31,045 bases of DNA. Source: a virus. Of the stretch, positions 662-12,398 are shown piece after piece (the stretch's first letter is position 1; the number at the start of each line of letters is the position of its first letter). Location of the stretch: IMG/VR virus record IMGVR_UViG_3300028767_000072, positions 1-31,045 of that record; one strand, given 5' to 3'. The translations under genes were made by a program, and so were the position numbers. The notes below the pieces were generated by a model. The model was given only the letters and a program-made list of their open reading frames with translations. It was not told where the DNA came from and did no database searches.

Positions 662-2041
662 TTATTTGCTTTTTGCTAATTTGTCTTGAATATCTTTCAA
701 AGACATTTTTGCTTTTGGCTTAACTTCTTCTGGTTCTTCAACCTCAGGTTCTGGTTCAACAACTCCCCCCACGGCTTCCCGTATCAAGACACGAATTTCA
801 TCGTCTTCAAAGGATTTTTTTACCCGAACGTCCAAATCGTTTTCGGCAATAAATTCTTTCAATTGTTCTCTGTCCATATCATCGAACTGGTCGCCCGTTT
901 CAGGTGCATTTTCAGCGGCTGTTGTGATTGCCATAGCTTCACGAATCAAGTCACGGATTTCGTCGTCTTCGTATGATTTCTTGACACGAACATCAAGTTC
1001 GTTTTCAGCAATATATTCCTTCAGTTCTTCCCTATCCATGTCATCAAATTCGTCGCCTGCTTTTTTCTTAACAGATTTTTTTACAGGAGCTTCTTCTTCT
1101 TCGTCGTCAACCGCTTTCTTTTTAGCAGTTGGTTTTGAAGTTTCCTTTTCAACCGTTTTCTTTACTGCTTTTTTAGCAGGTTTTGCGTCTTCTTCTGAAT
1201 CGTCAACGGCATCGTATTGAGCGCGAATTTCTTCAAGCTTTTCAATCCAAGCTTCGTTTTCGAACAACCCAATTTCGTTTGTTTCGTCGAAGTTTTGAAG
1301 ACCTTCAACCGCGCGGTCAAACTCACGCATATTGTACTTACCGATTACCTCGTTCAGTGGTTTCAAAGACATAAAAGCTTCAAGCACTTCGTCAGAAAGA
1401 GGATAGGCAATATTCTTTTTAGGGAATGATGTTTCGTAATACTGTTCGCCCTTTTTGCGGTTAGGGTTTTTCATATACTTCACCAAGATTGGTAGACCTT
1501 CGTCTGGGTCGGTGAATGGGTCAATTTCGATGGCGTCATCGTCTTCTTCAGAAAAGGCAAGTTTGTTCATGGCGTCACGAACCATTTTCTTAAATTCCCA
1601 CAACATAGGGTGCAGTTCTTCATCGGATACAACTTTAGAGGCATAAGCCATCCAACTGTAAGAAGGTTTCAAAGAATCTTTATCTCCAGTCAACGCTTCC
1701 AATTTGTCGCTGTCTTTAGCGCAAAATTTAGTAGCCATTTTGGAATACTCTTCAACAACATCCATTTTAGTACCGCCGTGAACTCTTGAGTCGTTAACCG
1801 TACCGCGTCCCATGTCTCCGTCTTTTTTGGCGAAGCTTAACCAATAACATTTTTTAGCAACATAAAAATCTTCCATTCCAGGATGTGGCGGGAACATTCT
1901 TATCTTAGTTGTTTTACCGTCTTCAAGAGTCAAGTACTCATTATTGCTTGCGCCAATAAGAGTGTTATCATCTTCGACATGTTTTTTCAACTGTTTAATC
2001 GGTGTAGCTTTAAATTGGCTACGAAAACTTTTTTCTGTCAT
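662..2041 (-). CDS. gp32-like single-stranded DNA-binding protein with duplicated C-terminal module
   Basis: Probably the phage ssDNA-binding protein that protects template strands and loads recombination and replication proteins. The call rests on its place between the recombinase and the putative mediator, and on its build: a basic N-terminus rich in Lys (residues 1-21), an OB-like core (about 30-275) with a Cys/His-containing stretch (Cys65, His89, Cys107), and a long charged tail. The tail has an Ala/Lys/Glu linker (283-328) and two near-identical 41-residue modules (330-370 and 384-424, 34 of 41 positions identical), then an acidic segment and a last Lys-rich helix. The modules look like small helical SAP/HeH-type units; that is an inference. 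At 459 residues it is much longer than T4 gp32 (about 300). The start codon at 2039-2041 follows an 18-bp palindrome that may control translation. I recognise the family by context and general pattern, not by a decisive motif. Confidence 0.65.
   Translation of the reverse strand: MTEKSFRSQFKATPIKQLKKHVEDDNTLIGASNNEYLTLEDGKTTKIRMFPPHPGMEDFYVAKKCYWLSFAKKDGDMGRGTVNDSRVHGGTKMDVVEEYSKMATKFCAKDSDKLEALTGDKDSLKPSYSWMAYASKVVSDEELHPMLWEFKKMVRDAMNKLAFSEEDDDAIEIDPFTDPDEGLPILVKYMKNPNRKKGEQYYETSFPKKNIAYPLSDEVLEAFMSLKPLNEVIGKYNMREFDRAVEGLQNFDETNEIGLFENEAWIEKLEEIRAQYDAVDDSEEDAKPAKKAVKKTVEKETSKPTAKKKAVDDEEEEAPVKKSVKKKAGDEFDDMDREELKEYIAENELDVRVKKSYEDDEIRDLIREAMAITTAAENAPETGDQFDDMDREQLKEFIAENDLDVRVKKSFEDDEIRVLIREAVGGVVEPEPEVEEPEEVKPKAKMSLKDIQDKLAKSK
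770..892 (-). repeat. Copy 2 of a 41-residue module in the ssDNA-binding protein
   Basis: Encodes residues 384-424, which match residues 330-370 (932-1054) at 34 of 41 positions. The shared core is DDMDRE-LKE-IAEN, then LDVRVKKS, then EDDEIR-LIREA. The DNA copies differ at many third codon positions, so the duplication is old or has been held under protein-level selection. Confidence 0.85.
932..1054 (-). repeat. Copy 1 of a 41-residue module in the ssDNA-binding protein
   Basis: Encodes residues 330-370, the partner of the copy at 770-892. It directly follows an Ala/Lys/Glu-rich linker, so the two modules hang on a flexible tether outside the DNA-binding core. Confidence 0.85.
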
Positions 2042-2066: not shown

Positions 2067-2570
2067 TCTTGTTTTTTTGATTACTATATTATTAACTTTG
2101 CCCTGAATCATATCATCAGTAATGTCCCCCGTTTGCATGCTCATCGACAATTTATCGAGCTTGCCTGATTTGTCCTTAGAACTCCAAAATACGCTCTGAA
2201 TGTAGTCTCGATTTTTTTGAGTTTCAATAAAAGATTTCTTCATCGCTTGAAACCCCTTATCTAACATGATTGCCGAATTGAGCTCGTCAACCGTTGCCGC
2301 CTTGCCTCCTTTTTGATTAGTTATCTCAATTCTGAGACGTTCCTTCACTTTAGCCTCAAATATGTCCACATTCAATTTCTTTTCAGAAACTTGCGCTTCC
2401 ATGTCGGCTAACATTTTCCCAAATCTGTTAACGATAACGGGGAATGTTATTATTTCGCCAATCAAGTTTGAGTAGTCAATTTTCAACAAAGAGTCAATAT
2501 CAACTTCTTCATCAAACTCATCAAAAATCATTTTGTAGGTAGACTCGCCTACCGTTATCGACTTAACCAT
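2052..2570 (-). CDS. Unknown protein, candidate UvsY-like recombination mediator
   Basis: A 172-residue soluble protein without a motif I can name. It has an acidic N-terminus (about 15-26), a predicted helical middle with many charged residues (55-125), a WSSKDKSGKL segment near residue 130, and a basic C-terminal end. A UvsY-type mediator, which helps UvsX displace the ssDNA-binding protein, is suggested only by its place beside the ssDNA-binding protein and recombinase genes and by its similar size and helical, charged character. Its start overlaps the end of the DUF1599 gene by 8 bases, so the two are likely translated together. A general replication accessory protein is an equally possible reading. 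Confidence 0.4.
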   Translation of the reverse strand: MVKSITVGESTYKMIFDEFDEEVDIDSLLKIDYSNLIGEIITFPVIVNRFGKMLADMEAQVSEKKLNVDIFEAKVKERLRIEITNQKGGKAATVDELNSAIMLDKGFQAMKKSFIETQKNRDYIQSVFWSSKDKSGKLDKLSMSMQTGDITDDMIQGKVNNIVIKKTRKLID

Positions 2571-2856
2571 TTTGGTCAGATTTTAGAATATGTAAACCGA
2601 TTACTGCGTAACCTACAATATCTTTCAGAGTATCTTCCAAACTTTCAAAATTTGGTTGCACACCTTTCATTTGTTTTTCAACTAAACTCCTGTACCTTCT
2701 GGCTTTGTCCCAGATGTGTACCATGTTCCCGTTTGTTCCTAAATCAAAAGACGCCCCGCCGTAATCTAAATTCTTTTTTACAAGTATTTCTGTAACCGCG
2801 GAAAGTATTTCTTCAATAGTTTCCTTTGTCATTTTCCCTTGTTCTTCTTTGCTCAT
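2563..2856 (-). CDS. DUF1599 (nucleotide-modification-associated, MazG-like) protein
   Basis: A 97-residue protein that matches the DUF1599 pattern: K-x-LDYGGASFDLG at residues 28-40, WDKARR at 49-54, and ESLEDTLKDIVGYA at 71-84. These Asp, Glu and Lys positions recall the metal-binding helices of all-alpha MazG-type nucleotide pyrophosphatases. The family is often found in phages near nucleotide-modifying enzymes, and here it shares an operon with an HD nucleotidase, a family C polymerase and a thymidylate synthase homologue. A role in cleaning or remodelling the dNTP pool is inferred. Translation could also start at the second Met (residue 9), which precedes the conserved part. Confidence 0.7.
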   Translation of the reverse strand: MSKEEQGKMTKETIEEILSAVTEILVKKNLDYGGASFDLGTNGNMVHIWDKARRYRSLVEKQMKGVQPNFESLEDTLKDIVGYAVIGLHILKSDQNG

Positions 2857-2874
2857 TTCTTATAACTTTTATGT

Positions 2875-3513
2875 TTAAAATTCCATTATTTTTTCAAAGT
2901 TTAACGCACTTGCCGGAAACTTTTCCAACAACACTTCAACCAATTCAGCTTTAGCTTCAAATTGGCGTCCGTCAATGTAGTCTATCCTATTTTTGAAGTC
3001 TTGATTACCCAACGCTATTTCCCTAATTACATAAAATTCAACAGCTAACCAATCGCACCATTTAACAAACTTTTTCACAGCATATACCGGATTTTGTATG
3101 TAATCTTTCAACATTTTAGAAGCCGAAGTTATTTCCGGAAATTCTGATATATCGCCAGTGTGTTTTTGCTCAGTAAAATGTTTATCTGCTAAATGCCCTG
3201 ATAACCTATCCAATTCAGACCTCAATGCATTGCCATTGAAATCGTTATACTTAGTTTCGTGGGATATATCTCGGCGCAATAAACATTCATCCCAATCATG
3301 TAAAGCGGATTGTCGAATAACATCCAATTTGTACTTTAATACTTCAACATTGTCGGAATTTCCGAATATGTCTTCTAACGCTATTGTAGCGAACACTAAA
3401 ACTTTGTAAGAATGCTGAGTTACGCTCTCGTGCTTGATTACGTCAACTTCTTGCCATTGGATTATATTATCCAATCTCTTTAAATAATCTCCTTCAAAAA
3501 TTTTCTTTAGCAT
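2875..3513 (-). CDS. HD-domain phosphohydrolase, YfbR-like 5'-deoxynucleotidase
   Basis: Likely a metal-dependent nucleotidase acting on deoxynucleoside monophosphates. HD-fold residues are visible in order: His34 in ESVTQHSY, the His72-Asp73 doublet in ALHDWDE with Glu76 close by, and Asp154 in KWCDWLA as the distal ligand. The early R-x-NIIQW pattern (residues 13-20) and the RRDISHETK segment (80-88) fit the YfbR/HD_3 group. Length (212) is near that of E. coli YfbR (199). It lies 3 bases after the polymerase stop codon, so it is probably in the same transcript. Such an enzyme could recycle host nucleotides or remove dNMPs unwanted in phage DNA; the substrate cannot be read from sequence alone. 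Confidence 0.75.
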   Translation of the reverse strand: MLKKIFEGDYLKRLDNIIQWQEVDVIKHESVTQHSYKVLVFATIALEDIFGNSDNVEVLKYKLDVIRQSALHDWDECLLRRDISHETKYNDFNGNALRSELDRLSGHLADKHFTEQKHTGDISEFPEITSASKMLKDYIQNPVYAVKKFVKWCDWLAVEFYVIREIALGNQDFKNRIDYIDGRQFEAKAELVEVLLEKFPASALNFEKIMEF

Positions 3514-3516
3514 GAT

Positions 3517-6500
3517 TTATGATATTATATATATTTTTGTTTTATCCCAAGAAAATAACCCCTTTTGACCACGGTAAGTATCCATCTTAACCCTTCCGTT
3601 AACTACTATAACCTTGCCGTTCAGATCGGTGACTTCTTCTGTCATGTCAGCCCATGTATCTGGCCATACGGTGACTCCTATCATAGCGTTGTTGCTTTCT
3701 AGATTTATTGAAAGCATATTACCATTCTTAGTTTTACGTTCGTTAACCGCTATAACCTTGCCTGCTACGGCAACTTCGCTGCCCTCCTTCGCTTTATTGA
3801 ATTCATCTCCCGCTACGTACAACCCCGCTATCCTTTTGCTCGGTATGGAGTCTTTAATCATTGTTTCGTAATCCACATCACCGAACCCCGTAAGACGTTT
3901 CTGTTCGAACACCCAAAATGTATTTTTATCAGCTTCGGGGGAATTATAAATATCAGGCAGCGGCACTCTTTTGAGATTGAAATACCACACTAACAATATT
4001 TTTCTTTGTAATGGTGCTTTGAAATCTTCAATCAAGTCAAATGCTCCTGCAAGTATCAAATTTGTTATAACCCCCTTGTTCACCTTGCTAGGAACTCTGC
4101 TGACGAACTCTTCCAAATCAAAGAATTTGCCGCCTTTGGCGCGTGTCTCCATTATATTAGATACGGCTACATCGCCAACGCCTTTTATTTTTGTAAGGCT
4201 GAAGAATATACGCCTATTTTTATGGTCGCACGTAAAGTTTTGATCTGAAAAGTTTACATCAGGCGGACGCACTTCAATTTCTTCACCAATCTTTTTTATC
4301 TCCGCTAATCTGAAAGGTATGTCTACCTCGCTTGCGTGTTGCAAAGAAGTAGTCCAAAACTCCAACGAATAATTTACCTTGAACCATTGGCTCCAATATG
4401 ACATTATTGAGTATGCGGCTGCGTGGGAGCGATTAAATCCATATCCAGAGAACTTGTCAAGTTTGTCCCAAATCTCATTTGCTTCTTTTTCTGAACAACC
4501 TCTAGAAACAGCACCACTTATGAATTTTTCAGACATAGCCGCCATAGCTTTTTTGTCTTTTTTCTTCATAACGGTTCTTAATACGTCAGCTTCTACCAAT
4601 GACAGCCCACCAAGAACGTGAACCGCTTTCATAATTTGTTCCTGATATATGTACAACCCCGAAGTGCTTTCGGTCACTTCTTGTAACCCAAAATCATAAT
4701 GAGGTTTCTTCTTCCCGTTCTTTATATCGGAGTAATCTTGGTGAGCATTACTTTCCATAGGACCAGGACGGAATACGGCTGTCATGGCTATTAAATGTTC
4801 TAGATTGTCAGGTTTCACGCTCCGGCAATAACTCATCAACCCCGTTGTACCGAACTGAAATACGTCCTCATTCCAACCGCGCTTGAACATTTTGAATACA
4901 TTTTCGTCGTCAAAAGGTATTTCGTTTGTGTCAATGTCAACCCCGTAATTTGCCTTGATTAACTTTATTATCTTTTGGAACTTATCAAGCTGAGTGAGTC
5001 CCAAAATGTCTTCTTTTAAGAATCCTGACTTGTCCATGTATTTACCTTCCCATTCTGAAACCAACAAACCGTCAATTTTCTTAACAGGCAACCATTCAAA
5101 TAAATCTATGTCTTTGCCCTCCAAATTTTGCTTAGGTACAATTACGACCGCCGAAGGGTGAACTGACGCAGCTCGGCACTGAAACACCGCAAATTTGATA
5201 GTATGAACCAACTCCGGATATGTTTGTATGAACTTGAATAACCGTTTTGATTTTGTGGCATATTCTATAAGGTCTCCCCAAGACTCTTGTTGCCAATCGT
5301 CAATGTCTTTAGTCAAAGCATTTGTGTCATCAAAAGACAACCCCTTAATTTTTCCAAAGTCTTTTATACAAGTCTTTAATTTCATTCGGGTATATGTACC
5401 GATAACGCAAGTATATGAATGACCATATTTTTCTTTGATATAGTTTTTTACGCTATCTCTAAATTCTGTTGGGAAATCTACGTCGATATCTGGCATACTA
5501 TCAGCACTCTTTGCGCGCTCCCCAGATACACGAGTTTCATTTAAAAAACGTTCAAACAATAAATCATATTTTATTGGGTCTACATCTGTTATTCTTAGTA
5601 GATAAGCTACCAAAGAACCGCATACCGAACCACGCCCCGAACCTACCATTATATCATTTTCTCTACACCAACGGCAAATATCCCAGTGAATCATAAAATA
5701 ATCGCAAAGACCGTTCGGAACAATGACATTACATTCAGTTTCTAGACGCTCCAAATAAAGATCCATATCTGCTTTACTTAAATGAGATAAGCGTGTTTCA
5801 ATCCCAACTTGTAGTTGTTCAAAGAAAGACGATTTAACGTCATCAACCTCAAACAACGGAAGTTTCCTTTCGCTGGTGTTTATCTTCATATTCGCTTGTT
5901 CAGAAAGCTCAACTGAATTTTCAATACCTAAAAGTACTACCTCTACCAGTGCTTCCACATCTTCTAACCATTCAGAATATGACTCAACCGTATCTTGAAA
6001 ACTTTTGTAAAACTGTGATTCACTTTCGGCGTCTGCCCTGCCGTCAATTTTGTTCAATAACGATTTCAAGCTACCGTTTTCCTTGTCCAAATAGTAACTA
6101 TCATTTATCAATATTGGGTTCAGATATTTTCTGTATTGGCAAATATATTTATCTATGTTCGATAAATGTTTTTTGAATAATGTGGTTGAAGAATATTCGA
6201 CAGTATCTATTTGGTAATATACTTCGTCGAAATACTTTTTGTATTTATTGATTAATTTAATGCAGTGAGTCCTGTCATCTTTAAAGTAGTTGAATTCACT
6301 TTCTTTAGGTATTACCAAGCATAATCCAGCGCCGTACTCATAAAGTAACTCTTCAGGGATAAAGCCCGAAAAATCCACGTTTACAGCCTTATTTATCAGA
6401 AGTAGATTTTTCCAACCTTCATAATTTAAAACAAAGAATTTCAATTCAAATGTTTCTTGTATTTCCACTGACTCGTCGTAGCCTTTTGCTACCGTAATGG

Positions 6501-7035
6501 TTTCGCCCAATATACATTTTATTTTATTCTTGTCACAAGCGGTTTGAAACGCCAGCGCTCCCGCCAGAGTATTTTTGTCGCATATCCCTAAATACTTATG
6601 CCCTAAAAATTTTGCTTTATCTGACCATAATTGGCATATCCCGCTACCGTTCAAAATCTCGTATTCTGAATGAACCCCTAAATGTGCGAACTCCATTACT
6701 AATGGTTCGCTTGTAGCACCCTTGTACTTGAAATCGTTGAACTCGGGTTTGAATATTAGCTCATTGTATTTGTTTTTGCCCTTTATTAGTCCGGAGCAAT
6801 AAAACCTACCGCCGAACTCGAACAATATAAAGTCGGCTTCTTTATTGTCTAATAAATTGTATTCATCATCTGACAAAATGAAACTAAAATCATCGTCTAT
6901 TATTTTACCGTCAAATGGCTTTAAATACAAATACTTCCCAACTCCTTCAACAATAATAATGTCGGAACCATTGTTATCTGATTCCGACACCATTAACTTG
7001 TTTTCTTTAACCCAATTCAGTAAGTTTTCAGTCAT
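3517..7035 (-). CDS. dnaE: DNA polymerase III alpha subunit (family C, DnaE-type)
   Basis: The replicative polymerase of the phage. A PHP domain starts near residue 112 (FAHLGVHSEYEILNGSG). Position 120 is Gly where metal-binding PHP domains often have His, so like E. coli DnaE this PHP domain may be inactive as a nuclease. The palm holds GSGRGSVCGS (466-474) and PDIDVDF (515-521), with catalytic Asp516 and Asp518; the third Asp is likely 676 in KEDILGL. Further on are FRPGPMESN, YQEQIM and GYGFNRSHAAAYS blocks, then helix-hairpin-helix-type DNA binding and a C-terminal OB domain (GSEVAVAGKVIAV onward). At 1172 residues it matches cellular DnaE (about 1160); an extra segment of about 110 residues precedes PHP. 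No intein or frameshift is seen. Its ATG overlaps the stop of the thymidylate synthase gene as TAATG. Confidence 0.95.
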   Translation of the reverse strand: MTENLLNWVKENKLMVSESDNNGSDIIIVEGVGKYLYLKPFDGKIIDDDFSFILSDDEYNLLDNKEADFILFEFGGRFYCSGLIKGKNKYNELIFKPEFNDFKYKGATSEPLVMEFAHLGVHSEYEILNGSGICQLWSDKAKFLGHKYLGICDKNTLAGALAFQTACDKNKIKCILGETITVAKGYDESVEIQETFELKFFVLNYEGWKNLLLINKAVNVDFSGFIPEELLYEYGAGLCLVIPKESEFNYFKDDRTHCIKLINKYKKYFDEVYYQIDTVEYSSTTLFKKHLSNIDKYICQYRKYLNPILINDSYYLDKENGSLKSLLNKIDGRADAESESQFYKSFQDTVESYSEWLEDVEALVEVVLLGIENSVELSEQANMKINTSERKLPLFEVDDVKSSFFEQLQVGIETRLSHLSKADMDLYLERLETECNVIVPNGLCDYFMIHWDICRWCRENDIMVGSGRGSVCGSLVAYLLRITDVDPIKYDLLFERFLNETRVSGERAKSADSMPDIDVDFPTEFRDSVKNYIKEKYGHSYTCVIGTYTRMKLKTCIKDFGKIKGLSFDDTNALTKDIDDWQQESWGDLIEYATKSKRLFKFIQTYPELVHTIKFAVFQCRAASVHPSAVVIVPKQNLEGKDIDLFEWLPVKKIDGLLVSEWEGKYMDKSGFLKEDILGLTQLDKFQKIIKLIKANYGVDIDTNEIPFDDENVFKMFKRGWNEDVFQFGTTGLMSYCRSVKPDNLEHLIAMTAVFRPGPMESNAHQDYSDIKNGKKKPHYDFGLQEVTESTSGLYIYQEQIMKAVHVLGGLSLVEADVLRTVMKKKDKKAMAAMSEKFISGAVSRGCSEKEANEIWDKLDKFSGYGFNRSHAAAYSIMSYWSQWFKVNYSLEFWTTSLQHASEVDIPFRLAEIKKIGEEIEVRPPDVNFSDQNFTCDHKNRRIFFSLTKIKGVGDVAVSNIMETRAKGGKFFDLEEFVSRVPSKVNKGVITNLILAGAFDLIEDFKAPLQRKILLVWYFNLKRVPLPDIYNSPEADKNTFWVFEQKRLTGFGDVDYETMIKDSIPSKRIAGLYVAGDEFNKAKEGSEVAVAGKVIAVNERKTKNGNMLSINLESNNAMIGVTVWPDTWADMTEEVTDLNGKVIVVNGRVKMDTYRGQKGLFSWDKTKIYIIS

Positions 7036-8255
7036 TACAATTTACCTAAGTATTCGTGTGTGTAATCCTTTAACCTTGATGCAAAAAAGTTCTTAGCGAG
7101 CACTACAATATCCAAATTTGACATTTCAGGATCAATATTGTTAACGCAAGAATCAATCAGTTGCAAAGATCCAACTCGCAATAATTGAGCGTCATTATTC
7201 TTATCAGCAAGAAGTTTTTTGTAACGTAAATAAATTGCGCAAAGATTATACGCTAAATACAAATACTTTGAAAACTTTGATACCTCTTGAAGTTCAATAA
7301 GCGAAGCCGTTTCTCCCGCTGCAAGCTTCGTTAAGTTATCAATAATCAAATTCAAATGTATATCTATTTCCCTCAACCTATTTCCTGGAACTTCATGTTC
7401 AAAGTTAAAATCAATTTTCTTTGAATGTGATACTTCGTACAATTCAGGTTGCGAAGTTATATGTCCCATAGATTGTTGCGCTTCTCTGATTTCAAAAGCG
7501 TCTTTCATTTTTGAGGCAGTTTCGTTCCATTCATAAATATGCAAACTTTGCGAATTATGAGTTTGAGTACCTAACTCAACCCCTATGCAATTAGCAAATA
7601 ACTCGGTCAAGAAACTGAATTGAAAAATGTTCGTAGGTAATCCCCAATGCAAATCGTTGCTTCTGTTTTGTATGGTGGATATTAACTTTCCTTTTCTTAC
7701 CTTCACCATCAAAGTATCATTACACGGTGTATCTTTTGTCTTAGCTCCTAAATCGAAATCTGGGTTCCAAATCTGCAATACGACCTGCCTGCTATCCGAA
7801 TTTTCATTCAGTATTTTTACCGCGTCAGCGATTTGGTCATGCCCTTGAGCCACATTCATATTTTCTTCCAAAAATGTATCTTCAGCCCTGACTCCCCAAT
7901 GTCTTAATCTGAACCCGTATGGCGCGTGGAATGTCTTTCCGTCATCTGAAAAGTCAGACATTTTTTTATTGAATAGTGTAAGGAAGTGAACATCCTTCTT
8001 ACCATTAAATATCCACATTGCTTCGGCAAGTAAAAAGAAAATGTTTATATCTCTACCGAATCCACCCACGCAACGATTATACGGATTTGTAAGCATTGTC
8101 TTGAAATCAAGAAGCTCTTTTGTTTTGCCAACTCGGCTATCTTGAATATCTAAATTGTCCAACATCCATTTATTTAATGCCGGATACATCTCGGAAAATT
8201 TAGGAGTCTTCATTATTCCTAATTCGGGAATAAGCGCATTGTTAATGTCTTTCAT
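7035..8255 (-). CDS. Thymidylate synthase-family enzyme (ThyA fold)
   Basis: Methylates or hydroxymethylates the C5 of a pyrimidine dNMP using methylene-tetrahydrofolate. Visible family signatures are APYGFR (111-116), the phosphate-binding SDSRQ (153-157), catalytic Cys178 in TPCND, NRSND (197-201) and GLPTN (205-209), then the HIYEWN strand. Asn209 occupies the position that favours a uracil base in ThyA, so dUMP is the likely substrate. The residue after the catalytic Cys is Asn, not the His usual in cellular ThyA. The protein is 406 residues against about 264 in E. coli; the extra length lies in the N-terminal part and in a C-terminal helical region after residue 300. It shares an operon with the polymerase and two nucleotide enzymes. 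It could be a plain thymidylate synthase or a dUMP hydroxymethylase. Confidence 0.85.
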   Translation of the reverse strand: MKDINNALIPELGIMKTPKFSEMYPALNKWMLDNLDIQDSRVGKTKELLDFKTMLTNPYNRCVGGFGRDINIFFLLAEAMWIFNGKKDVHFLTLFNKKMSDFSDDGKTFHAPYGFRLRHWGVRAEDTFLEENMNVAQGHDQIADAVKILNENSDSRQVVLQIWNPDFDLGAKTKDTPCNDTLMVKVRKGKLISTIQNRSNDLHWGLPTNIFQFSFLTELFANCIGVELGTQTHNSQSLHIYEWNETASKMKDAFEIREAQQSMGHITSQPELYEVSHSKKIDFNFEHEVPGNRLREIDIHLNLIIDNLTKLAAGETASLIELQEVSKFSKYLYLAYNLCAIYLRYKKLLADKNNDAQLLRVGSLQLIDSCVNNIDPEMSNLDIVVLAKNFFASRLKDYTHEYLGKL

Positions 8256-8369: not shown

Positions 8370-9416
8370 CTATTCTTCTTCTTCAACAACCACTTTTTTA
8401 GTTTTGGTTTTTGCTTCGGCAATTTTTGCTTTTGCAGCGGCAACTTTATCAACTACTGGAGCGACAGGAGTTTTTACAACGGCTTTAGCGGCTGGTTTTG
8501 CAGTTTCCTTAACGGCTGGTTTTGCAGGTTCAGCTTTACTTGACTTTTTCAAGTTTTCTTCCATTTTGTTTCTGTTTTCACCTAACTTTTTGTCAAGTTT
8601 ATTTACAGATGCTTCAATGTTTGGCAATAAAGCTGCCAATATTTCGTTCAATTCATCAATGTCCAACGCTTTGATGAAAGGTACTCCGGACCAACAAATT
8701 TCGTGGTCAATACCATTTTCGGTTAACCCGTCAACATGTCCATTAAATGTAGGCAAGTACAATGTTGCTACAAAAGTACCATCTGCTTTCATTGAACCGT
8801 TTTCCAAAGATAATACAGCGCGGTTGGAATTTTTACCCTTATATTTAACGGTAACTCCGGCATTGCTAATCCAAGCATACAAGTAATCTTCGTCAGGAAA
8901 CAACGCTTTCAAGAACTCAAAATGTACGCGGTCTTCTTCCACATCTTTAGGGTTCAATTTGGTAGGTTTGGCAGTTTTTGCTACTTCTTCCTTTTTGGCA
9001 GTTTCTTTAACAACAGGTTTTGTTTTTGCAGCGGCGGCGGGTTTTGCAGTTTCCTTAGCGGTTGGTTTTGCTACGGCTTTCTTTGCTGGAACTTCTTCTT
9101 CGTCTTCTTCAACCACAACTGGTTTTTTGGCGTTTACTTTTGACGCTGCTTTTTTGGCTGGAATTTCTTCTTCTTTTGAAAGTTCTTCCAATTCTTCTTC
9201 AGTTTCTCCCGATTGCCCCTCGGCGTCTGGAGTTTCATCAACGTCAACAAATGATTCTGCAAGATCAATCAAAGTTTCAAGATCTTCATCTTCCATGCCT
9301 TCAATACCATTTTTAATTAAAAACGCGTTTACTTCAGTTTTTGCGTCTTCTTCGTTTTTTGCTTTGAATCCCAATGCAGTCAATTTCTTGCTAGTGGGAG
9401 CGGTTAATTTTGTCAT
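8370..9416 (-). CDS. Lys/Ala/Glu-rich multidomain protein of unknown function
   Basis: A 348-residue protein with four visible parts. There is an N-terminal helical segment (1-57). A long linker follows (60-155) in which acidic blocks alternate with Ala-Lys-Pro-rich repeats such as PAKKA and ETAKPA. A compact central domain (about 160-290) holds aromatic and beta-type stretches (YLYAWISNAGVTVKYKG, then an acidic-helix end). A second Ala-Lys-Pro tail (292-348) ends in EEEE. The linkers resemble histone H1 or AlgP tails and the linker of the ssDNA-binding protein in this window. Such tails often bind DNA or tether domains; that role is inferred. The central domain matches nothing I can name. 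The gene lies between the sigma-like gene and its own terminator, so it probably ends a transcription unit. Confidence 0.7.
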   Translation of the reverse strand: MTKLTAPTSKKLTALGFKAKNEEDAKTEVNAFLIKNGIEGMEDEDLETLIDLAESFVDVDETPDAEGQSGETEEELEELSKEEEIPAKKAASKVNAKKPVVVEEDEEEVPAKKAVAKPTAKETAKPAAAAKTKPVVKETAKKEEVAKTAKPTKLNPKDVEEDRVHFEFLKALFPDEDYLYAWISNAGVTVKYKGKNSNRAVLSLENGSMKADGTFVATLYLPTFNGHVDGLTENGIDHEICWSGVPFIKALDIDELNEILAALLPNIEASVNKLDKKLGENRNKMEENLKKSSKAEPAKPAVKETAKPAAKAVVKTPVAPVVDKVAAAKAKIAEAKTKTKKVVVEEEE

Positions 9417-10669: not shown

Positions 10670-11616
10670 CACATTTTTACTTTTGAAATAATATTCTCGC
10701 TAAATTCTCTTGGTCTTCGTAATCTGGTGAATACTTCAAGTGCCTCTTCTTTGGAGCACTCATCGATATCTTTCTTAGACGTATATGTTATATTTGTAAA
10801 AAAGTTTTTTTCCAGTTCAAAGCCGTATTTTTTTATTTCCTTCAATGCGTCAAAGTCGTAAAGCAATATGACATTTATAATACCCTTGCTTTTTAGCTTT
10901 GCTATTTGCCATGGACTTATTTTCTTACCGAACGTGCAGCAACATTTTATGGCGTCGCAATTATCAAGTTCAAGAACTCTGTCAACCGCTACTTTATCAA
11001 ATCTGCCTTCAACCAATATTACCGTATTAGTTACATCTTTTATAATTTCGTCAAACCCGTCCAACAGTTTTGAAAAATCAGTTCCGGGACTATTATTGTA
11101 CCGCAACTTATCTTTTGGAACTTTTTTGTCAGCCCACCTACCCACGAACCCTCGTATCTTAGAGTTATCGTATATGGGGAATAAAACATACCCCTTGTAT
11201 TTCGATATTATATTAGCTTCTCCAAATTGGTACCTTATATAATGTCTTTTATTCAACCCCCTGCTGAATAAATACTTACTACTTTCACAAACTTTCCAAC
11301 CTGCTGGCATTTTAACAACTGGCAAATCTTCAAGTGTTATTTTTTCATCTTCTTCGACAAAACCAACTCCATTGATTGAATCCCTAAATTCGATTGTCGC
11401 GCCTTCTAATAGGTATGACTTATTGAGGAAACGGAGCAGTTTGTATATTGAGCCCGATTCAGAACATTTTTTACAGTCCCATCTTTGAGTTAATTTTGAT
11501 ATATAAAAATGCTGAGCTTTCCCACAAAAAGGACAGTCGCAAATGTACTGTCCTCTTGTGTTCAACTTGCTGTTAACAAGTAGCCCCTTTAAATCTGAAT
11601 CGTCTATTTTATTCAT
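10669..11616 (-). CDS. DnaG-type DNA primase with zinc finger and Toprim domain
   Basis: Makes RNA primers for the lagging strand. The N-terminal zinc-binding domain is visible as Cys26, Cys28, Cys31, Cys48 and Cys51 (CDCPFCGKAQHFYIS, then CKKC), though the first pair is closer than in DnaG. The catalytic Toprim domain shows the Glu of VEGRFDK (202-208) and the DFD metal site at 254-256 in LLYDFD, with a Gly-rich turn TFGKK between them. At 315 residues it is short, like T4 gp61, and lacks a helicase-binding domain of DnaG size. Its ATG overlaps the homing-endonuclease stop as ATGA, and its stop overlaps the next start as TGATG. The replicative helicase gene lies upstream, separated only by the endonuclease gene. 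Confidence 0.85.
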   Translation of the reverse strand: MNKIDDSDLKGLLVNSKLNTRGQYICDCPFCGKAQHFYISKLTQRWDCKKCSESGSIYKLLRFLNKSYLLEGATIEFRDSINGVGFVEEDEKITLEDLPVVKMPAGWKVCESSKYLFSRGLNKRHYIRYQFGEANIISKYKGYVLFPIYDNSKIRGFVGRWADKKVPKDKLRYNNSPGTDFSKLLDGFDEIIKDVTNTVILVEGRFDKVAVDRVLELDNCDAIKCCCTFGKKISPWQIAKLKSKGIINVILLYDFDALKEIKKYGFELEKNFFTNITYTSKKDIDECSKEEALEVFTRLRRPREFSENIISKVKM

Positions 11617-12398
11617 TTGTTTCTTTTCTCAGTTAATCCTCTCTTCCATCCAGCGGGTATTTCTTCATCTTTACCCAAAGATGAATTTAAAATGCCATTA
11701 GTTATTCTAATCTTACCAAATAATGGATTTTTATTTCCCGTCATAGAATTAGACATTTTTATTTTAGAATTTTCACTCCAAGTTTTACCTGTGAAATGTG
11801 CGGATAACTTTAATTTTGTTTCTTTTGTGTGTGTTTTGCCTAACCAAAGTTGTTTCCCTTTCATTAAATCGGATTGCGATTTGTTATGTTCTAAACTCCA
11901 ATGGTTTCCATAATTCCAGTGTTTATCACCCGCTTGTTTTCCCTTATTAGATTCGGAATTTAATGATTTGGTTTCTTCATCCCAATGTTTCCCGAACATG
12001 TGGTGTTCGGTTCCGCAATATTTACCTTTTCTAGATTTTGAAATTTTTATACGGACTGAAGTTAATCTAGACATAGACCCCATTCCGAAATTATTGGCAG
12101 TTCCTGGTAATATGTTATATCCTAATTTACAAGAATCGTATTTCCTTATGTAATGTTCTTCCAACTTATCAATTACTTTTTGGTTATCAACTTTGATATA
12201 ATGCAAAACTTCTCGTTCAAAATTAACAATAAATTTCCTTCCAAACAATTTTCTGTATTTGCTAATAATTAATGATAACTCGGAACCGCTACCCAAGTAA
12301 TTAGAATCAAGCGTTTTTTGATTTTTTATCCTGTGCTGTCCAATGTATATTTTCCCATCAGGCAAATGTGTTGTTTTATATATTATTGCTATAACCAT
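11613..12398 (-). CDS. GIY-YIG homing endonuclease with NUMOD3-type repeats
   Basis: A free-standing homing endonuclease likely to spread itself by cutting related phage genomes that lack it. The N-terminal nuclease domain carries the GIY-equivalent strand IIYKTTHLPDG (5-15), then YIG at 18-20, and the catalytic-type Glu80 or Glu81 in KLEEHYIRKY. The middle has NUMOD3-like helix motifs (KSRKGKYCG and MFGKHW around 121-139, GKTHTKETKLKLS around 187-199, NSMTGNKNPLFGK near 217-229) used for DNA contact. The C-terminal end (TNGILN, then EEIPAGWKRGL) is a usual tail in this group. It sits between the helicase and primase genes and overlaps the primase start by four bases. No intron boundaries are seen, so it is intergenic and not intron-encoded. 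Confidence 0.9.
   Translation of the reverse strand: MVIAIIYKTTHLPDGKIYIGQHRIKNQKTLDSNYLGSGSELSLIISKYRKLFGRKFIVNFEREVLHYIKVDNQKVIDKLEEHYIRKYDSCKLGYNILPGTANNFGMGSMSRLTSVRIKISKSRKGKYCGTEHHMFGKHWDEETKSLNSESNKGKQAGDKHWNYGNHWSLEHNKSQSDLMKGKQLWLGKTHTKETKLKLSAHFTGKTWSENSKIKMSNSMTGNKNPLFGKIRITNGILNSSLGKDEEIPAGWKRGLTEKRNK

Follow-up and report, generated by a model that had tools for sequence, protein, structure and literature searches.

The window analyzed here is the whole of a 31 kb virus fragment (31,045 nucleotides; IMG/VR record IMGVR_UViG_3300028767_000072); it is part of a phage only, and genes absent from it are uninformative on the phage as a whole. Its minus strand carries a cassette in which an enzyme of the thymidylate synthase superfamily is joined by a DnaE-type DNA polymerase, an HD phosphohydrolase and a small DUF1599 protein. 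The original prediction placed these four genes at 2563–8255, and open reading frames (ORFs) together with curated profiles confirm all of them, packed as a single run:

7035..8255, minus strand: predicted deoxyuridine monophosphate (dUMP) hydroxymethylase of the thymidylate synthase superfamily, 406 amino acids (PF00303, phage matches, alignments, tree, and residue counts)
3517..7035, minus strand: DnaE-type family C DNA polymerase, 1172 amino acids (DnaE Pfam domains and TIGR00594)
2875..3513, minus strand: YfbR/DatZ-type HD phosphohydrolase, 212 amino acids (PF12917, phrog_7076, and alignment with YfbR, DatZ, and M6)
2563..2856, minus strand: DUF1599 (NMAD1) protein, 97 amino acids (PF07659; occupies the slot after the HD gene)

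The stop codon of the synthase and the start of DnaE overlap at position 7035, the two junctions after that have gaps of 3 nt and 18 nt, and 8 nt are common to the DUF1599 gene and the ORF that comes next; these tight junctions make a single transcript for the four genes plausible. The order synthase–DnaE–HD is kept in relatives at approximately 55% (synthase), 57–68% (DnaE), and 39–51% (HD) identity, and since it persists in such diverged relatives the arrangement is not due to chance. The residues singled out in the prediction are also present, namely C178 and N209 in the synthase, the His/Asp/Glu set of the HD protein, and DYGG and WDKARR in the DUF1599 protein.

Identity of the synthase

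Against the curated PF00303 profile the synthase scores 91.9 bits. Its best matches among 50,697 phage records are the SPO1-type gp29 dUMP hydroxymethylases (approximately 42–45% over approximately 200 residues), followed by those of Pseudomonas phages M6/YuA. 5-Hydroxymethyl-dUMP (hmdUMP) is the established product of the SPO1 enzyme. The signatures of the window protein include the nucleophile C178, the adjacent N179, SDDG (103–106), NRSND (197–201), and N209; the thymidylate synthase C-terminus is missing, and in its place is a longer tail of approximately 120 extra residues.

Sixty-nine members of the hydroxymethylase clade were compared with 40 true thymidylate synthases, including E. coli ThyA and T4 Td, and the window protein departs from the latter at positions that matter to the mechanism. 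The residue following the catalytic Cys (His147 in E. coli) is Asn in all 69 clade members, as it is in the window (N179), whereas 39 of the 40 true synthases have His. Trp80, found in 40/40 true synthases, occurs in 0/69 clade members, and the window has Ser at the equivalent position. The uracil-reading Asn177 is retained throughout the clade (69/69), its window equivalent being N209. A crystallographic study found that Asn at position 177 marks uracil-using enzymes, including the SPO1 hydroxymethylase (dUH), and Asp marks cytosine users (PMC5175136). In a FastTree phylogeny, the window synthase stands apart from the true thymidylate synthases, within a hydroxymethylase clade (local support 0.963) that holds the SPO1, M6, and ViI enzymes and a window subclade (1.0). 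From its active-site residues and its position in the tree, we surmise that the window synthase is almost certainly a dUMP hydroxymethylase. A scan of GTDB with the clade alignment recovered no clade member and hence no host.

Genes that accompany the hydroxymethylase

The HD protein matches the YfbR-like 5'-deoxynucleotidase family PF12917 (34.5 bits) and falls in phrog_7076, which also holds DatZ of cyanophage S-2L. A tblastn search with it against all phage records returned nothing at E 0.01, and its homologues came from the IMG/VR relatives. The metal-site residues H34, H72, D73, E76, and D154 align with DatZ H34, H66, D67, E70, and D119; D82 is also present, and W20 is kept.

The company of this gene was surveyed in 80 hydroxymethylase and 80 true-synthase IMG/VR loci with 5 kb flanks, using a profile that combined YfbR, DatZ, and phage sequences. 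The profile was matched in 57/80 hydroxymethylase loci versus 0/80 true-synthase loci; after dereplication at 80% identity the figures were 44/61 and 0/72 (Fisher p 1.6e-21). An independent, curated Pfam HD model, applied above its cut-off to whole records, gave 26/40 versus 0/37 (p 1e-10), the control records being mostly the larger ones. In most lineages other than the window's own, the start of the HD gene lies on the synthase stop codon or close to it. The pair is also present in Pseudomonas phages M6 and PaMx11, Rhodoferax phage P26218, and a spring-water podovirus, and the order synthase–HD–DUF3310 is common to M6, PaMx11, P26218, and ctfPj964.

DatZ acts on deoxyadenosine triphosphate (dATP), discarding the base that is being replaced (PMC8065100), and a thymidine triphosphatase (dTTPase) activity has been reported for PhiW-14, a phage with 5-hydroxymethyldeoxyuridine (hmdU) (PMC5977210). 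Phage M6 reportedly contains 5-(2-aminoethyl)-dU (PMC6449724). Because of the analogy with DatZ and the PhiW-14 dTTPase, and because the gene keeps company exclusively with hydroxymethylases, the HD enzyme is somewhat more likely than not a remover of thymine nucleotides (dTMP and/or dTTP). Removal of unwanted nucleotides by HD/MazG enzymes, as originally proposed, is plausible.

In 41 of the 44 dereplicated HD-bearing loci, HD is immediately followed by a gene of the DUF3310-like, phrog_480-like, DUF1599, or DUF1599-like type. Within the window lineage the slot alternates between DUF1599 and phrog_480/DUF3310-like proteins, and most relatives have a DUF3310 or phrog_480 protein there. Curated DUF3310 was found in 12/40 hydroxymethylase versus 0/37 true-synthase records. 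T7 gp1.7 belongs to this family (PF11753, 81.5 bits) and has been reported to be a nucleotide kinase (PMC10700055). The window protein itself scores 30.5 bits against PF07659 (curated cut-off, 25 bits). In four loci (L125, L129, L139, and L149) the hydroxymethylase, a protein of 508–584 residues, has a DUF1599-like domain joined to its C-terminal part; such a domain also lies close behind the hydroxymethylase in SPO1-like loci without HD, and is found in SPO1 gp30 (annotated "DNA replication").

The AlphaFold model of the DUF1599 protein (pLDDT 85) resembles the folds of AF_0060 (TM 0.67), DCTPP1 (TM 0.59), and MazG proteins, with a best E-value of 0.13 and none significant. Its invariant residues are Y32, G40, K51, R54, E71, D75, D79, and Y83, and the acidic EExxE...ExxD pattern of MazG is not among them. 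The earlier description of the protein as MazG-like is therefore weakly supported: the predicted fold resembles the MazG type, but neither the E-values nor the conserved residues bear it out. No sequence relation was detected between DUF1599 and DUF3310, homology of the phrog_480 slot protein to DUF1599 or to M6 gp061 found no support when profiles were compared, a fold search with the DUF3310 model gave no match, and both slot families lacked a meaningful match to PDB by sequence. The third protein might be an hmdUMP kinase or a supplier of dUMP; any assignment is speculative, with a slight lean toward the kinase, which we put forward only tentatively.

The polymerase, the wider pathway, and neighboring genes

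The polymerase contains the domains PF07733, PF17657, PF14579, and PF02811, scores 647 bits against TIGR00594, and possesses a PHP domain and the motif DIDVDF. It lies between synthase and HD in those window-lineage relatives where all three genes are readable, and elsewhere the module occurs without DnaE, whose insertion is specific to this lineage. Its nearest named phage homologues infect Bacteroidota, which suggests a host in that phylum. In several relatives DnaE is split into two ORFs (L040, 6232–9980; L042, 5494–9996, corresponding to G009, 82145–86647); in G009 a separate ORF of 243 residues lies between the halves. A DnaE in two pieces is found in Cellulophaga phages, too.

The statement that the window contains no kinase is correct, yet all large relatives carry elsewhere a domain associated with 5-hmdU DNA kinases. 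HMUDK_hel is the helical domain named for these kinases. Every relative that reaches 89 kb has it (7/7), against 1/37 true-synthase phages, that one match being partial (p 2e-7), and it is present in M6, ViI, PhiW-14, and PaMx11 but not in SPO1. Because all near-complete relatives carry it, hmdU probably undergoes further modification once the DNA has been replicated, through genes that would lie outside the fragment. Of the two sources of dUMP, dUTPase occurs in 8/14 relatives and deoxycytidine monophosphate (dCMP) deaminase in 4/14.

Several other genes of the relatives deserve mention. A polynucleotide-kinase-like AAA_33 P-loop protein, possibly an hmdU kinase, is encoded at L018 8857–9360 (minus strand; close relative G002) and was not seen in G008 or G009. 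A conserved small protein (L018 1939–2364, minus strand; G009 1150–1578) recalls uracil-DNA glycosylases by eye but has no profile support; M6 has a weak match to such a glycosylase near its modification genes. A conserved pair (G008 92813–94938; G009 62934–65070) that by eye resembled a PIG-L deacetylase and a glycosyltransferase was dropped for want of significant Pfam or PHROG support.

Upstream of the cassette are genes for a helicase, a primase, and a DnaB-type helicase, and downstream is a RecA/UvsX gene. Directly upstream of the synthase (8370–9416, minus strand) is a Lys/Ala/Pro-rich low-complexity protein whose position is conserved in relatives and whose sequence is variable. Between RecA and the cassette (662–2041, minus strand) lies a gene for a 459-residue protein, the C-terminal half of which contains two near-identical copies of DQFDDMDRE.LKE.IAEN. 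A GIY-YIG-type homing endonuclease gene (11613–12398, minus strand) is located between the primase and helicase genes; the interval measures 857 bp in the window versus 28 bp in G002 (synthase 84% identical), and because this close relative is without the gene it is probably a recent insertion.

A predicted 5-hydroxymethyldeoxyuridine module

These observations are best explained if the cassette is an hmdU module, consisting of a hydroxymethylase, a thymine-nucleotide scavenger, and a variable third protein, into which DnaE has been inserted; we consider this likely. That hmdU or a derivative is present in the phage DNA, as the genes predict, is very likely. The synthase would use methylene-tetrahydrofolate to convert dUMP to hmdUMP rather than to thymidine monophosphate (dTMP), and the HD enzyme would dephosphorylate dTMP and/or dTTP, keeping host thymine out of phage DNA. 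The DUF1599 protein, in the slot otherwise held by DUF3310, would handle the new nucleotide, either as a kinase acting on hmdUMP or as a source of dUMP, a step that is speculative. The DnaE polymerase would then copy the phage DNA, incorporating hmdU where T would otherwise stand, and the hmdU would be modified further after replication.

The closest known systems each share part of this arrangement. Gp29 of Bacillus phage SPO1, whose DNA contains 5-hydroxymethyluracil, is 42% identical over 206 residues and shares the Cys-Asn, SDDG, and NRSND signatures, and SPO1 gp30 has the DUF1599-like domain; however, no HD gene is annotated beside gp29 in the region read, and its different polymerase does not lie between synthase and HD. 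In the thymidine hypermodification operons of Pseudomonas phages M6, YuA, and PaMx11 the hydroxymethylase is followed by a YfbR-like HD gene and then DUF3310, with HMUDK_hel in M6 and PaMx11, but these phages possess an ADDT transferase and further side-chain genes of their own, which the window lineage essentially lacks, and a different DNA polymerase, which is situated outside the synthase–HD pair. The Z-cluster of S-2L (purZ-datZ-mazZ) likewise combines a synthesis enzyme, an HD phosphohydrolase of the same phrog, and a small nucleotide enzyme with variants. There, adenine is replaced and not thymine; the window lacks PurZ, and its third gene is not demonstrably of the MazG type. DUF3310, to which the T7 gp1.7 nucleotide kinase belongs, occupies the third position at most loci with a hydroxymethylase and HD, whereas the window has DUF1599 there.

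Several findings weigh against the module. The HD proteins of the window clade differ from DatZ at the base pocket, with E22 for I22 and no PTP motif (DISHETK in the P79 region); because these dATP-specificity residues are not matched, the window protein was not filed as DatZ and is predicted not to share its specificity. The fragment itself is without HMUDK_hel, dUTPase, and dCMP deaminase, the HMUDK_HMUD1 kinase was found in 0/17 window-lineage records, and the lineage yielded no ADDT transferase apart from a single weak match, in G024. Profiles of the third slot match 52/61 hydroxymethylase versus 0/72 true-synthase loci (dereplicated), but they were trained on hydroxymethylase loci, so that the first figure, unlike the second, is partly built in. 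DUF1599 is also found in many phages outside the hydroxymethylase survey, including crAss-like and Gordonia phages. As to the proposed tie between DUF1599 and nucleotide modification, DUF1599-like domains do accompany hydroxymethylases and are fused to some, but the presence of DUF1599 alone does not in general mark out a phage with modified bases.

Either an altered pyrimidine or extra dTMP was considered in the original prediction. The former is now strongly supported and can be narrowed to hmdU; the active-site residues speak against the latter, as does the absence of HD genes beside true synthases in the loci sampled. An ordinary thymidylate synthase cassette boosting dTMP during infection, with HD and DUF1599 proteins as house-cleaning enzymes, would suit a PF00303 member with the catalytic Cys and dUMP-binding Asn, and many phages carry a true synthase. 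It is nevertheless improbable: Asn after Cys and the loss of Trp80 are the opposite of the 40 true synthases, the C-terminus is missing, HD adjoins a true synthase in none of the 80 loci, and a dTMP/dTTP remover would counter the boosting of dTMP. More improbable still is a dCMP hydroxymethylase cassette leading to 5-hydroxymethylcytosine as in T4. That enzyme belongs to the same superfamily and T4 gp42 groups beside the hydroxymethylase clade, but the base-reading position is Asn and not Asp (the criterion of PMC5175136), and the closest homologues use dUMP. Both enzyme identities were rejected on residues and tree.

A reading closer to the preferred one retains hmdUMP as product but has the HD enzyme remove another nucleotide (dUTP, dCTP, or dATP) and the DUF1599 slot hold a MazZ-like nucleoside triphosphate pyrophosphohydrolase feeding dUMP. 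DatZ, of the same phrog, does act on dATP, the structures closest to the DUF1599 model have the MazG/dCTPase fold (TM values reaching 0.67, E-values not significant), and in S-2L PurZ is fed by MazZ. Yet DatZ discards the base being replaced, which here would be T, the EExxE...ExxD pattern is not among the conserved DUF1599 residues, and the slot is most often held by DUF3310, in which a nucleotide kinase has been demonstrated. We regard this alternative as unlikely.

What is known of thymine exclusion and the charging of hmdUMP in phages with 5-hydroxymethyluracil comes largely from activities measured in infected cells, such as the PhiW-14 dTTPase and hydroxymethyl-dUTP (PMC5977210). No description of the three-gene association was found in the literature searched, coverage of which was partial, and priority is not claimed. 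A bolder proposal, somewhat doubtful at present, is that hydroxymethylase, HD, and DUF3310/DUF1599 form a self-sufficient, transferable hmdU cluster, in which the HD enzyme would be specific for thymidine nucleotides and the third protein would be a P-loop-free hmdUMP kinase. If this is true, these genes would jointly suffice to substitute 5-hydroxymethyluracil for T in a cell, the counterpart of what the Z-cluster does for A. The Asn/His signature after the catalytic Cys, which separates hydroxymethylases from thymidylate synthases, and the occurrence of the module with hydroxymethylases, and never beside true synthases, would together turn many phage "thymidylate synthase" annotations into checkable predictions and give DUF1599, DUF3310, and the phage YfbR-like proteins specific, testable functions.

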